DNA from: Bacteroidales bacterium
GTDB taxonomy: Bacteria > Bacteroidota > Bacteroidia > Bacteroidales > UBA932
Reading direction: 5' to 3'
Assembly: GCA_017477465.1 (NCBI GenBank)
Contig: JAFUVU010000032.1
Span: 23,556 to 87,555, forward strand
Length of the DNA: 64,000 bases
The translations under genes were made by a program, and so were the position numbers. Positions 30,639 through 37,752 of this stretch are shown here, one piece after another (position 1 is the first letter of the stretch; each line of letters begins with the position of its first letter). The notes beneath the pieces were generated by a model, which saw only the letters and a list, made by a program, of their open reading frames with translations, was not told where the DNA came from and ran no database searches.

Positions 30639-32816
30639 TCAGAAGGGATAGCCGACACCGAAATGAACTGCAGTATTGCCTTTGAACCACTCTGCCGGAG
30701 GCACCCAGCGGTCTCCGGCTTTGCGTCCTGGATCGTGCAGTCTGATGCCTGCGTCAACGCGCACCAGTATGAAATCCAGATTCACGCGCAGTCCAAGGCC
30801 CCAGTCAAGGCCGATGCTTTCGCCCAGGTTTTTAAAGCTGAACATGGCATCGTCTGTAGAACCGGAGATATCCCAGATGTTGCCGGCGTCCACGAACAGG
30901 CCGCCTTCAAGTTTCCAGAAAAGAGGGAAGCGGTATTCTGCGTTGGCTTCCAATTTCATATCGCCTATCTGGCTGGGAATGAGGAAGAGTTCGCTTAGCA
31001 GAGTTTCATTGCCGGGGCCGAGGGTCCGTGCCTGCCATCCGCGCATCGAGGTTGAGCCGCCGGCGTAGAAAAGCCTGTCCAGAGGTGCCGTAAACGAGTT
31101 TCCGTAAGCGTAGGAGGCGCCTGCAAGAAAACGAAGGGCGAGGGCATGCTTGTCTGCGGCCCCGAAGCGGAAGGTCTTGCCCAGCTGCAGTTCGCCGCGG
31201 ACATATTGGGCGTAGGGGGTTTCCCAAATAGTGCGGACGTTGTCTTCGTCAGTCGGCATAAGGTTGTTGAACAGGCTGAGCACGTTTCCCGACACGTCCA
31301 CGCTTAGGCGGGCGTAATGATATGGCCTTGAAGGGATTGCCGACGCATCCGTAGTATAGTACAGCGCTCCGGAAACCCCCATGTCAAAGTTGTTGGAGTA
31401 GAGGTTGACGATGTACAGGTTGTCGGCGATGCTGTCCACGAAATCGTCGGCTATGTCGAAAACGCGGGCGATGTTCACCCTGAAAGGAGTGAACTGGTAG
31501 AAAAGTTTTGAGGCCAGACGTCCGTTATAAGTGAAGGCCGTTGAAATGACGGTGCGGTGGAATTCGGGCCTGTTTTGATAGCTGAAGGCGGCGCTGACTT
31601 CCGTATTGGGGATGTAAGGACCTCTGTACCAGCGGTTCGGCAGGCCTACCAGCTGAGGAAAGCGAAGGGATGTGGTTACGCTGACGTCGGTAGCCCTTGT
31701 GGAAGTGCCGGGCTTGAACTGGAAGTTTCCCCTGATACCCAGATTGAGGAGTTCACCGCCGTGGAAGAGGTTTTTGTGGTAATAGCTCAGCTGCGGGGAA
31801 ATACCTATCAGACCGGTGGAATTGACCGACGCCTCCAGATTGGTCTTGAAGCCTTGAAGACCGGAGTTGCGGAGGGAGATGTTGCAGTCCACCTTGTCCT
31901 GGCTTACCGGGGTCATGTTGATGTTTACGCCGGATAGCATGTTTACGCTGCTGTATCGGCTGTAGGTGGTATTGATTTCCTCTTCGTTATAGAGCTGGCC
32001 CGGGCGGAGTGTATTCAGGCTTTCCAGCACCGCAGGGCGTATTTTCACATTCTGCGGATGTGAGATGCTGACGGCTCCAAGGGTGAATTTCTTGTGCTCC
32101 TGCGCCGCGGCGGGCGTATCTCCAAGGGCATAGTCCCGTATGGAGTAGGTGAGGCGGGCGTGGCTGTCTCCTGCAAGGGTGTCGGCCTCGAAAGCATAAT
32201 AGCTTTTTGTGAAACCGTAATATCCAAGATTGCGTAAGTACTGGGCCGATCTGTTCGCCTCCTGCTCAAGGGCCGATTCAGAGAGATAATCGCCCTTATG
32301 GATGCCGATGTTGGGCTCGTCGGCCATGAAATCGGCCTTCAGGGTGCCGTAAGAGGGGATGTCGTAATCTATTGCGCTGATTTTGTATCGCTTGCCAAGT
32401 GCCACATAATAAGTGACATATACCTTGCGCCCCTTTACCTGGACTTCGCTTTCCACCTGCGAGCCGTAGTAGCCCAGATAGCGGAGGTGGTTCTGGATAT
32501 TGGCGATGCTTTCGTCAACGCTTGCGCTCTGATACACTACGGGCGCAGTGCCGAAGCTTTGGAAAAAACGCTGAAGGGACGTTTCGCCTTTTCCGCCCCA
32601 GTTATAGACGGAAAGCAGCGGATTGAGCCCGAGCAGGTAAGAATTGGGCTTTTGGACGATATACGAAGTCAGGCTTGATGCACTGAAGCTTTTATCGTTC
32701 ACTTCGACCTTGTTGTTGCGGAGCAGGTACTGCCCGTCGGCAAGGGAACGCGTAGTGCTGCATGCGGCCGATAGCGCTGCCGCACATAAAAGAAATATGC
32801 ATTTGAGCCGATTCAT
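30639..32816 (-). CDS. tamL: BamA/TamA-family outer-membrane lipoprotein TamL
   Basis: A 725-residue Omp85 protein with a lipoprotein signal (Cys19 in LSAACS), POTRA-like repeats between about 110 and 330 (NIQNHLRYLGYYGSQVESEVQVKGRKVYVTYYV is typical) and a C-terminal 16-strand barrel (GGSTSMRGWQARTLGPG, VDAGNIWDI) ending in GVGYPF. The lipidated TamA replacement is characteristic of Bacteroidota and works with TamB in outer-membrane assembly. TamB is not in this window. A -7 box TACTTTTG ends 5 nt before the ATG. Confidence 0.93.
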   Translation of the reverse strand: MNRLKCIFLLCAAALSAACSTTRSLADGQYLLRNNKVEVNDKSFSASSLTSYIVQKPNSYLLGLNPLLSVYNWGGKGETSLQRFFQSFGTAPVVYQSASVDESIANIQNHLRYLGYYGSQVESEVQVKGRKVYVTYYVALGKRYKISAIDYDIPSYGTLKADFMADEPNIGIHKGDYLSESALEQEANRSAQYLRNLGYYGFTKSYYAFEADTLAGDSHARLTYSIRDYALGDTPAAAQEHKKFTLGAVSISHPQNVKIRPAVLESLNTLRPGQLYNEEEINTTYSRYSSVNMLSGVNINMTPVSQDKVDCNISLRNSGLQGFKTNLEASVNSTGLIGISPQLSYYHKNLFHGGELLNLGIRGNFQFKPGTSTRATDVSVTTSLRFPQLVGLPNRWYRGPYIPNTEVSAAFSYQNRPEFHRTVISTAFTYNGRLASKLFYQFTPFRVNIARVFDIADDFVDSIADNLYIVNLYSNNFDMGVSGALYYTTDASAIPSRPYHYARLSVDVSGNVLSLFNNLMPTDEDNVRTIWETPYAQYVRGELQLGKTFRFGAADKHALALRFLAGASYAYGNSFTAPLDRLFYAGGSTSMRGWQARTLGPGNETLLSELFLIPSQIGDMKLEANAEYRFPLFWKLEGGLFVDAGNIWDISGSTDDAMFSFKNLGESIGLDWGLGLRVNLDFILVRVDAGIRLHDPGRKAGDRWVPPAEWFKGNTAVHFGVGYPF

Positions 32817-32883: not shown

Positions 32884-33402
32884 ATGAAAAATAAATACAT
32901 CGACCTAATTGACCAGACCTTCGACTTCCCTCAGGACGAATTCATGGTAGTTGACGGCAACCTGATGTTCAACGACATCGACCTGATGGAAATCATCGAC
33001 AAGTATGGTACGCCCCTTAAAATCACTTATTTGCCCAAGATTTCATCGCAGATCCAGCGTGCCAAGCGTCTGTTCAAAGTAGCCATGGCAAAAGCCGATT
33101 ATCAAGGCGAATACCACTACAGCTACTGCACCAAGAGCTCTCAGTTCGCCTTCGTAGTGCACGAAGCTCTGAAAAACGACATCCATCTGGAGACCTCATC
33201 GGCCTACGACCTGGACCTCATAGAAGCCCTGGAGAAAGACGGCTCAGTCAATAAAGAGGACCTGTATATCATCTGCAACGGCTTCAAGCGTCCGCAGTAT
33301 ATTGCGAATATAGCCAAACTCAGAAAAGGCGGATGGAATAACATCATCCCCGTCCTGGACACTAAAAACGAATTCGAAGAACTGGACGACCACATAGAAT
33401 AA
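32884..33402 (+). CDS. N-terminal part of interrupted arginine decarboxylase
   Basis: 172 codons ending at TAA. It starts MKNKYIDLIDQTF after a GGG at 32881-32883. It holds the PLP lysine Lys84 and the first half of the barrel. An upstream TTG at 32863 is a less likely start. Confidence 0.75.
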   Translation: MKNKYIDLIDQTFDFPQDEFMVVDGNLMFNDIDLMEIIDKYGTPLKITYLPKISSQIQRAKRLFKVAMAKADYQGEYHYSYCTKSSQFAFVVHEALKNDIHLETSSAYDLDLIEALEKDGSVNKEDLYIICNGFKRPQYIANIAKLRKGGWNNIIPVLDTKNEFEELDDHIE

Positions 33403-33411
33403 GACACCAGT

Positions 33412-34284
33412 ATGGGCATCCGCATAGCCTCGGAAGAAGAGCCCAACTTCGACTTCTACACCTCCCGCCTTGGCATCCGCTATTCGGACATCTTGAAGTT
33501 CTACCAGAGCACGGTGGCCAAGTATCCTAATTTCCACCTGAAGATGCTGCATTTCTTCATCAACACAGGCATCAGGGATACCGCATATTATTGGAACGAG
33601 CTTTCAAAATGCGTCAAGGTTTACTGTGAACTTAAAGCAATCTGCCCGGAACTGGACAGCCTCAATATCGGTGGCGGCCTTCCTAACAAAACCTCCCTCG
33701 CACAGGATTTCGACTATGAATACATGGTCGAAGAGATTATCAACCAAATCAAGGTTACCTGCAACGCGATGGGCGTGGAAGAGCCGGACATCTTCACGGA
33801 ATTCGGTTCCTTCACGGTAGGGGAAAGCGGTGCCACCATCTTCAAGATTCTGGATATCAAACAGCAGAACGACAGGGAGAAATGGTACATGATTGACAAC
33901 TCCTTCATGACCTGCCTGCCCGACACCTGGGGCCTCAACCAGCGCTTTATCCTGCTGCCTATCAACAAATGGAACGACGAGTATCAGCGTGTCTTTCTTG
34001 GCGGCCTCACCTGCGACAGCCAGGACTTCTACAACGCCGACTATCACGCCAACGCCATCTTCCTTCCCACAATCCGCAGCCGCAGGGAGAACCTGTATAT
34101 CGGCTTCTTTCACACCGGCGCATATCAGGAAGCGCTTTCCGGATACGGCGGCATAAAGCACTGCCTCATGCCATCTCCAAGGCACATATTGCTGGACAGG
34201 GACAAGGACGGCAATCTCATAACATCGGTTTTTGCTGAAGAGCAAAGCGCCGAATCGATGCTTAAGATGCTGGGATATAAGTAA
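33412..34284 (+). CDS. C-terminal part of interrupted arginine decarboxylase
   Basis: 290 codons from an ATG that is probably an internal methionine of the original gene (MGIRIASEEEPNFDF). There is no ribosome-binding sequence before it. It holds the glycine loop and the catalytic CDS motif (Cys201 of this part). Its stop abuts the rarA stop with no gap. Confidence 0.7.
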   Translation: MGIRIASEEEPNFDFYTSRLGIRYSDILKFYQSTVAKYPNFHLKMLHFFINTGIRDTAYYWNELSKCVKVYCELKAICPELDSLNIGGGLPNKTSLAQDFDYEYMVEEIINQIKVTCNAMGVEEPDIFTEFGSFTVGESGATIFKILDIKQQNDREKWYMIDNSFMTCLPDTWGLNQRFILLPINKWNDEYQRVFLGGLTCDSQDFYNADYHANAIFLPTIRSRRENLYIGFFHTGAYQEALSGYGGIKHCLMPSPRHILLDRDKDGNLITSVFAEEQSAESMLKMLGYK

Positions 34285-35583
34285 TTACTTCTTGTAATAT
34301 TTGGGCCAGCAGGCCTCGAGATAGGCACGGAGCGCAGCTTCGTGCTTATTTTGTGCGGGTTCGTAGAACACAGTGCCCTTGAGCTTTTCCGGCATGAATT
34401 CCATATCTACGAAATGACCCGGGTAGTCGTGGGCGTACTTGTAGCCGTCACTGTAACCGAGTTCTTCCATAAGCTTGGTAGGGGCGTTGCGTATAGGCAG
34501 CGGAACGGGCTGGTTGCCTGATTGTTTGACCTCGGCCAGGGCTTTCTCGAGGGCCATGTAACTGGCGTTGCTTTTAGGCGAAGATGCCAGATACACAGTT
34601 GTTTCCGCCAAAGGGATACGTCCCTCCGGCATGCCTATCTTGGATACCACTTCGAAGCAGGCATTGGCCAGAAGCAGGGCGTTTGGATTTGCAAGGCCCA
34701 CGTCTTCCGAGGCGCTGAGGCACAGGCGTCTGGCTATGAACAGCGGATCTTCTCCGCCGTCGATCATCCTTGCAAGATAGTAGATTGCGGCATTGGGATC
34801 CGAGCCTCTGATACTCTTGATGAAGGCGGAGATGATGTCGTAATGCATTTCCCCGTCTTTATCGTAGATGGCCATGTTCTCCTGGATGGAGGCCGTGACG
34901 GTGGCATTGTCCAGAACGATGGGGGACTGCCCCGCCTGGGCGTCGATTACAAGTTCCAGAACGTTGAGAAGCTTACGGGCATCGCCGCCGCTGTACCGCA
35001 TCAGGGCCTCGCTTTCCTTAATCTGTATGTCTTTGTCTTTGAGAAGGACGTCTTCCCGGAGGGCGCGCCTCAGAAGGATTTCCAAATCGGCCTTTTCAAG
35101 GGGCTTTAATACGAAGACCTGGCAGCGGGAAAGAAGGGGAGTGATGACCTCGAAGGACGGATTCTCAGTTGTTGCGCCGATTAGGACGATTGTGCCATTT
35201 TCTACAGCTCCAAGCAGGGCGTCCTGCTGTGCTTTGTTGAACCTGTGGATTTCGTCGATGAAAAGGATGGGCGCACCTTTCCGGTTGAAGAGTGAGCTGC
35301 TTCTGGATTTTTCAAAAACCTCGCGGACATCTTTTACGCCTGCGGTTACTGCGCTTAGGGTAAAGAAGTCACGCTCAAGTGTTTGTGCAATAATATGCGC
35401 AAGTGTGGTCTTTCCCACTCCGGGAGGCCCCCAGAGTATGAAAGACGACAGATTGCCGCTTTCTATCATCTTTCTCAATACGCAGCCCTGATCTACAAGA
35501 TGATGCTGTCCCACGTACTCATCGAGTGTGCGGGGACGCATTCTTTCGGGAAGAGGGGGGAGCATTGCGGATGATGCGCTCAT
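34285..35583 (-). CDS. rarA: Replication-associated recombination ATPase RarA (MgsA)
   Basis: A 432-residue AAA+ ATPase of the clamp-loader type: MRPRTLDEYVGQHHLV, Walker A GPPGVGKTTLA, Walker B LFIDEIHRFNKAQQDALL and the sensor GATTENPSFEVITPLLSRC. The C-terminal part (RGSDPNAAIYYLARMIDGGEDPLFIARRL, the tetramerisation region) is complete. RarA acts at stalled replication forks. It lies 2 nt after the GNAT gene and is probably co-transcribed with it. Confidence 0.95.
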   Translation of the reverse strand: MSASSAMLPPLPERMRPRTLDEYVGQHHLVDQGCVLRKMIESGNLSSFILWGPPGVGKTTLAHIIAQTLERDFFTLSAVTAGVKDVREVFEKSRSSSLFNRKGAPILFIDEIHRFNKAQQDALLGAVENGTIVLIGATTENPSFEVITPLLSRCQVFVLKPLEKADLEILLRRALREDVLLKDKDIQIKESEALMRYSGGDARKLLNVLELVIDAQAGQSPIVLDNATVTASIQENMAIYDKDGEMHYDIISAFIKSIRGSDPNAAIYYLARMIDGGEDPLFIARRLCLSASEDVGLANPNALLLANACFEVVSKIGMPEGRIPLAETTVYLASSPKSNASYMALEKALAEVKQSGNQPVPLPIRNAPTKLMEELGYSDGYKYAHDYPGHFVDMEFMPEKLKGTVFYEPAQNKHEAALRAYLEACWPKYYKK

Positions 35584-36825: not shown

Positions 36826-37752
36826 TTATTTGGCCTTGAGGGTGAGCTCCAGACGGCCTTCATATGTTGTGCCGCCTGCAGTGATGGTGGCTTTCACATC
36901 CAGGAGAGCGGTATTGTCTTCAGGGAAGGTAAATGTGCCGGTAGCTTTGCCGTTAATGATGGCGTTTCCTAAATTGCCAAGATCGTAGCTGAAGGTGGAA
37001 CTGGAGAGATTCCATGTGCCGTAGAACGGATCTTTACCGGTGAAAGTGATAACGAAGGTCTTGTCGCCTGTGATAATGATATTTTTGACTTTGTATCCCG
37101 ACAATTCCTCCTTGTCTTTGACCGAGAAGCTGATTCCTTTATTCTGGCCTTCTGCCCAAGTCGCAAATTCAAGCAAATCCAGGGTCCCGTCAATTTTCTT
37201 TTGGATGCCTGCAGAGCCCAGTGCCGCACCCTTGACTGAAATGATGGAAGATAAAACAGTCCAGCTTCTTGACATATTGGCAATTAAATCAGAGCCGGCA
37301 ACGATATCTTTAATAGTTGCACCGTTTACAGTGATGCTTGAACTTGAGCCGGCAGGGGTGAACTGAATGGTGTTGCCGATGATTTCGAATTTGCCAACGC
37401 CCTCGACGTTGTAAGCAAAACCGGTAGCTTTGCCGACGACATCAGCGGTGAAAGGCTTGACAATGAGCTTGATTTCAGGCTCTTCCGGTACTTCGGGTGA
37501 AGGAGTTTCTGGAGTTCCTTCCTCGATTCCTACGTAGATGAGAGTTTCGCCGTCTTCTGTAAATGTCGTCTTTTTCATATGATACGTAGTGCCGTCGATT
37601 TCTACATCGAGGGGCTTGGCGGAAGGTAATTCGACAGTCTTTGCGGATTTGACGGTGCTGGCTTCCTTTACGGATACGGAAGTCTTACCGGAGCAAGCGC
37701 TGAGCAGTGCAATCAGAGCTCCAAGGGATAAGAGGGCTAGAATCTTTTTCAT
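36826..37752 (-). CDS. Lipoprotein of unknown function
   Basis: The 308-residue protein has a lipoprotein signal with Cys20 in LLSACSGK. A short Pro/Glu-rich linker (TPETPSPEVPEEPE, about 80-93) separates an N-terminal part from a beta-rich C-terminal domain with FYGTWNLSSSTFSYDL, which recalls the lipocalin-like or calycin folds of many Bacteroides lipoproteins. I do not recognise a named family with confidence. It lies 24 nt after an outer-membrane barrel gene and ends at a strong terminator, so the two form a unit. Confidence 0.75.
   Translation of the reverse strand: MKKILALLSLGALIALLSACSGKTSVSVKEASTVKSAKTVELPSAKPLDVEIDGTTYHMKKTTFTEDGETLIYVGIEEGTPETPSPEVPEEPEIKLIVKPFTADVVGKATGFAYNVEGVGKFEIIGNTIQFTPAGSSSSITVNGATIKDIVAGSDLIANMSRSWTVLSSIISVKGAALGSAGIQKKIDGTLDLLEFATWAEGQNKGISFSVKDKEELSGYKVKNIIITGDKTFVITFTGKDPFYGTWNLSSSTFSYDLGNLGNAIINGKATGTFTFPEDNTALLDVKATITAGGTTYEGRLELTLKAK

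Follow-up and report, generated by a model that had tools for sequence, protein, structure and literature searches.

The window, as the whole stretch of 64,000 nucleotides analysed is called here, is part of contig C62 (87.5 kb) of a genome bin of 2.42 Mb, which is made of 73 contigs and is 82.5% complete; the stretch read contains no N. It carries a decarboxylase gene of 466 codons, whose frame is open except for a lone TAA, and which lies between two open frames of the opposite strand. The features are listed in Table 1. The two parts of the gene share one frame, as the original prediction had proposed, and the characteristic residues are divided between them in the way it had described: Lys84 lies 5' of the stop, glycines 263-265 and Cys377, within the TCDS motif, lie 3' of it, and all of them are invariant in an alignment of 32 sequences of relatives. 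The start of the first part was placed by the ORF tool at a TTG (32863); the start common to the relatives (MKNKYIDL) corresponds to the ATG at 32884. The downstream part ends at a terminal TAA (34282-34284). This codon is therefore the regular terminator of the same gene, and a changed genetic code, already considered unlikely, is rejected. The decarboxylase and the RarA-type gene meet tail to tail, their stop codons being directly adjacent (34282-34287). Another gene, at 36826-37752, is strongly divergent among related species, with 28-34% identity in the 5 homologues found.

Table 1. Features of the interrupted decarboxylase gene and of its neighbours; positions are those of the window.
Feature	Position	Strand	Basis or remark
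Decarboxylase gene, 466 codons	32884..34284	+	
Upstream part, codons 1-172, with the PLP-lysine region (Lys84)	32884..33399	+	ORF reading, alignment; dN/dS not above that of the relatives
In-frame TAA, codon 173	33400..33402	+	ORF reading; absent in 40 of 40 close relatives
Codons 141-176, tract with all eight residues unique to this genome	33304..33411	+	Codon comparison
ATG codon 177, possible restart, nine bases 3' of the stop, before the conserved GIRIA stretch	33412..33414	+	Start-like context
Downstream part, codons 174-466 and terminal TAA, with glycine loop and TCDS cysteine	33403..34284	+	ORF, Pfam, alignment
MgsA/RarA-type AAA+ ATPase, open frame, stop abutting the decarboxylase stop	34285..35583	-	Neighbour
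Omp85/POTRA protein, open frame, divergent from the decarboxylase	30639..32816	-	Neighbour

The Pfam cut-offs for both domains of the AR-fold decarboxylases (PF02784 and PF00278) are passed by the downstream part, and the upstream part alone gave no Pfam match at an E value of 0.001. Among the NCBIfam models, both parts are nearest to the SpeA-type arginine decarboxylases, and the best solved relatives are also SpeA-type enzymes (3nzp and 3n2o). The TKSS and TCDS stretches align with the structure 3nzp, which was matched in two blocks, the SpeA segment between them being unmatched. An intact relative scored 164 bits with the SpeA equivalog model (TIGR01273), whose curated cut-off is 624. The name arginine decarboxylase, originally given to the gene, is reasonable, but the score is so far below the cut-off that "short SpeA-like protein" is a better one. 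The product may reasonably be regarded as a short Bacteroidales relative of the SpeA arginine decarboxylase, with arginine as its predicted substrate.

Matches to the gene are present in 123 of 400 genomes of the genus, in 120 of 199 drawn from the family and in 179 of 393 drawn from the order; for genus genomes with a completeness of 90% or more and a contamination of 5% or less, the count is 51 of 150. Among the matches listed in the genus search, an internal stop occurs only in this genome. Codons were compared by using only matches spanning nearly the whole protein, for a total of 161 loci and 108 distinct sequences, counting that of the window. Constraint and clustering were evaluated on 40 close relatives, all distinct and with an amino-acid identity above 90%, and on 67 farther homologues, which include one broken copy (L062). 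In the 40 close relatives the gene is free of internal stops throughout its length, and all of them carry a sense codon at position 173, which is variable across the wider homologue set. Many of the close named relatives are Bacteroidales bins from the rumen or other foregut; the record L133, with 74% identity, belongs to Candidatus Cryptobacteroides excrementavium. In the tree, this genome is paired with L067 (the pair is given without a support value), and its terminal branch measures 0.159.

The original prediction had considered that homologues might carry two separate genes at this place. The relatives examined have single full-length genes, and no two-gene form was identified among the homologue matches listed and examined. 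Several apparent splits have other origins: those in G005 (L061, 1013-1095) and G459 (L169, 1049-1385) are runs of N, and the halves seen in G504, G525, G428 and G141 lie on different contigs. Two other copies of the family are broken, G323 by a TAA (L062, 1107-1109) aligned to codon 185, and G211, also an apparent split, by a frame change near codon 147 (L063, about 995-1010). The breaks of the three family copies are confined to a stretch of about 38 codons (post hoc P about 0.02); little weight was given to this, because the G323 stop falls on a position which is invariant in the 32-sequence alignment. Three genomes of the order (G621, G677 and G922) are listed with two matches each.

In the comparison with the relatives, dN/dS is 0.043 for the upstream and 0.034 for the downstream part, the corresponding values among the relatives being 0.055 and 0.048. 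For codons 150-180 it is 0.130 here, as opposed to 0.038 among the relatives. Because both parts, outside the tract, are as constrained as in the relatives, the substitution pattern points to one of three situations: the stop arose very recently, it does no harm to function, or it is an artefact. With a neutral N:S ratio assumed to be 2.5, neutral decay is compatible with roughly the final tenth of the terminal branch at most, because no unique missense change is found outside codons 141-176. This evidence fits the recent break proposed at the outset. As to the features by which pseudogenes are recognized, the frame is interrupted and orthologues are intact, and constraint is not relaxed over the whole gene.

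Eight residues of this genome are absent from all 40 relatives: seven missense residues, at codons 141, 152, 160, 166, 168, 170 and 176, and the stop itself at codon 173. All residues unique to this genome are thus contained within codons 141-176. Outside this tract 11 unique bases were counted, all of them synonymous; inside it, eight unique bases fall in the seven residue-changed codons. The Fisher test, comparing the inside with the outside of the tract, gave a p-value of 1.3e-5 when all eight bases were counted as residue-changing, and of 1.6e-4 when the third base of codon 160, which is silent alone, was counted as silent. This clustering around the stop had been missed by the original prediction, according to which both parts were fully preserved: the statement holds for the constraint elsewhere in the gene, but not for the tract and its seven unique missense residues, that at position 160 included.

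Codons 152-176 also form the most variable segment of 25 codons in the 67 farther homologues (entropy 1.40 versus 0.61, rank 1 of 442). When the seven changes were placed according to family variability, about 8 of 100,000 trials put 6 or more of them into one stretch of 25 codons (P about 1e-4). In the same gene of the 40 relatives, a maximum of 5 unique changes per 25 codons was observed, and none reaches the density of this genome. Five of the seven missense residues occur at the same site in other homologues, where 3.2 are expected for random missense (P 0.11). Residue 160, which is changed here, shows no variation among the other 107 distinct sequences. Judging from these comparisons, some of the clustered changes may be of the ordinary kind, in a segment which tolerates them; codon 160 is the exception among conserved sites. 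An apparent excess of transversions was discarded, as it involves 7 of the 8 unique bases in changed codons here, but also 48 of 66 in the relatives.

The neighbour genes were evaluated in the same way. In seven of them, represented by 29-42 homologues each, the unique missense codons of this genome do not exceed 3 in 25; three more, with only 5-13 homologues, gave counts of 4 to 13, which are uninformative. In other species, clusters of at least 6 were seen in four well-sampled neighbour genes, for a total of seven cases, mostly in outlying species or in one variable, poorly aligned protein, and also in the three poorly sampled genes. Such clusters are not unheard of, though none was seen in the decarboxylase of the relatives. 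At the DNA level, the tract has a median identity of 79.0% to the 40 relatives, versus 83.5% for the whole gene (73% versus 84% for the sister L067). Among the 107 distinct homologues compared there is no donor for the tract, the best DNA match being 84%.

The same bin holds open genes, which would likely act after the decarboxylase. An agmatine deiminase-type gene, at C56:5059-6087, matches PF04371 with 371 bits (cut-off 25), and an N-carbamoylputrescine amidase-type gene lies two genes beyond it. Each has the expected family as its best NCBIfam match, yet the scores are under the curated cut-offs (215 versus 382 bits for aguA, 310 versus 410 bits for aguB); by their sequences, the two are likely to be the agmatine deiminase and the N-carbamoylputrescine amidase of the pathway. 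No other arginine decarboxylase was found in this genome: the SpeA model matches only the gene described here, which also leads to the rejection of a second copy, and models of the pyruvoyl-type and of the aspartate-aminotransferase-fold enzymes gave no match. A match to the nspC model is nearer to lysA. Since the genome is only 82.5% complete, another decarboxylase may be missing from the bin.

The relation between the decarboxylase and the agmatine deiminase-type gene was analyzed in 200 genomes of the genus, where a match to PF04371 was taken as strong with an E value below 1e-40, and 15 genomes with only weaker matches were scored as lacking the gene. Both genes are found in 52 genomes, including this one, and neither in 135, the discordant genomes being 5 and 8 (Fisher p 2e-33). 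This co-occurrence ties the decarboxylase to agmatine metabolism; for arginine decarboxylation itself, which is predicted, it is indirect evidence. In Bacteroides thetaiotaomicron, lack of the N-carbamoylputrescine amidohydrolase results in slower growth and severely lowered spermidine, as stated in PMC10135574. A literature search joining Cryptobacteroides, rumen and arginine decarboxylase returned no paper, and the gene may still have been reported; in the part of the text of PMC8503589 that was available, no word begins with "bacteroid".

The plainest reading of these results is a real, recent nonsense mutation in a short SpeA-like (alanine-racemase-fold) arginine decarboxylase. It is favoured here, with about even confidence, and an assembly artefact is ranked second. 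It would imply a correct base call and no rescue by restart or readthrough. The absence of the stop in all 40 relatives, the open partner genes and the low dN/dS of both parts speak for it, and it fits the patchy distribution of the gene in the genus. The host would be a Bacteroidales bacterium near rumen lineages, probably a Cryptobacteroides, in which the stop would truncate the enzyme at a position presumably inside the barrel domain; the first step of the agmatine route, from arginine to agmatine, would be lost, while the genes of the later steps remain, and the allele would represent an early stage of a loss common in the genus. The cluster at the stop sits against it, as a lone recent stop leaves the clustered missense changes unexplained. 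Because of these clustered changes, an artefactual tract and a functional split stay alive.

According to the former, the assembly or consensus would be wrong over a short piece of the contig (about codons 141-176), and the gene of the organism would be intact. This would account for changes that are local and include the stop, in a tract without donor and within a gene otherwise constrained; the copies of G323 and G211 are likewise broken in their assemblies. On the other hand, the tract is embedded in a contig of 87.5 kb, with no N in the stretch read, the seven well-sampled neighbour genes are free of such a cluster in this genome, and the finding of five of the seven changed residues in homologues leans slightly to real evolution. 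An artefact is thus a tentative explanation, and probably not the correct one.

A functional split is judged unlikely. Translation would end at the TAA and resume at the ATG nine bases downstream; the resulting fragments would assemble, and the new ends would be left to drift. The pattern predicted in this case is the one observed, with missense changes unique to this genome flanking the stop and absent from the rest of the gene; the stop sits in the most variable segment of the farther homologues, and the genes of the likely partners have open frames. Splitting a barrel is not an absurd idea, since an activation process is reported for the isolated half-barrels of a beta-glycosidase (PMC4591997). 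When ranked by a start-context model trained without this gene, the restart ATG belongs to the top 3% among 3574 internal ATGs and reaches the 42nd percentile of 422 starts. Adenine is present at -3, -6 and -13, and T at -12; in Flavobacterium johnsoniae, adenines at -3, -6, -12 and -13 are positive determinants (PMC6847099). Most of the start-like score derives, however, from the TAA itself: 184 TAA-N9-ATG sites of the same loci, used as a control, have a median of 3.03, versus 2.87 here, which removed most of the apparent support for a specially adapted restart context, and the same ATG in 38 relatives scores up to 3.81, with a median of -2.84. The lack of a two-gene form among the homologues examined, and the change of a residue as conserved as that at position 160, also argue against the split. 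That a PLP-dependent barrel decarboxylase has newly become an enzyme of two polypeptides, by one stop followed at once by a restart, and drifts at the new ends alone, is regarded as doubtful. If both fragments did work together, this would be a natural, very young split of a barrel enzyme, caught at birth, and the substitution pattern would show the effect of splitting on the selection acting on a protein.

Less probable still is a tract acquired by recombination from an unsampled, possibly already broken, allele: the changes are tightly bounded and the tract is somewhat less similar to the relatives than the whole gene, but there is no synonymous excess (dS 0.97, versus 0.96 among the relatives), nor a donor among the homologues compared. 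Readthrough of the stop to give the full-length enzyme, mentioned in the original prediction, is very improbable, in spite of the kept frame and of the constraint on both parts: the absence of the stop in the 40 close relatives argues that this is not a conserved readthrough site, the RNA around it has an ordinary structure (z -0.7), and TAA, a strong terminator, also ends this gene. An RNA recoding element was likewise discarded, neither stop conservation nor a recoding structure having been found.

The favoured nonsense allele, if real, would be one step in a recurrent loss of the agmatine-type polyamine route in the genus, and the species could rely on neighbours or on the host diet for agmatine or putrescine.

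Among known enzymes, both parts resemble SpeA (TIGR01273; 3nzp, 3n2o and 3nzq) most in sequence, and the TCDS motif as well as the PLP-lysine region can be aligned with it. SpeA differs in length, as the SpeA profile has 624 positions, of which about 360-447 are unmatched, versus 466 codons here; the gene described is also far below the curated cut-off, and a stop interrupts it. D-ornithine/D-lysine decarboxylase (8d2y; DokD, NF052544) and other AR-fold decarboxylases are similar in length, and the match consists of one alignment, covering profile positions 5-460, but is much weaker than that to SpeA (31 versus 112 bits). Nonsense alleles and young pseudogenes are a known class in bacteria. 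The gene resembles them in having one nonsense codon, intact orthologues and a dispensable function; it differs in showing no decay beyond one short tract, with changes that cluster at the stop.
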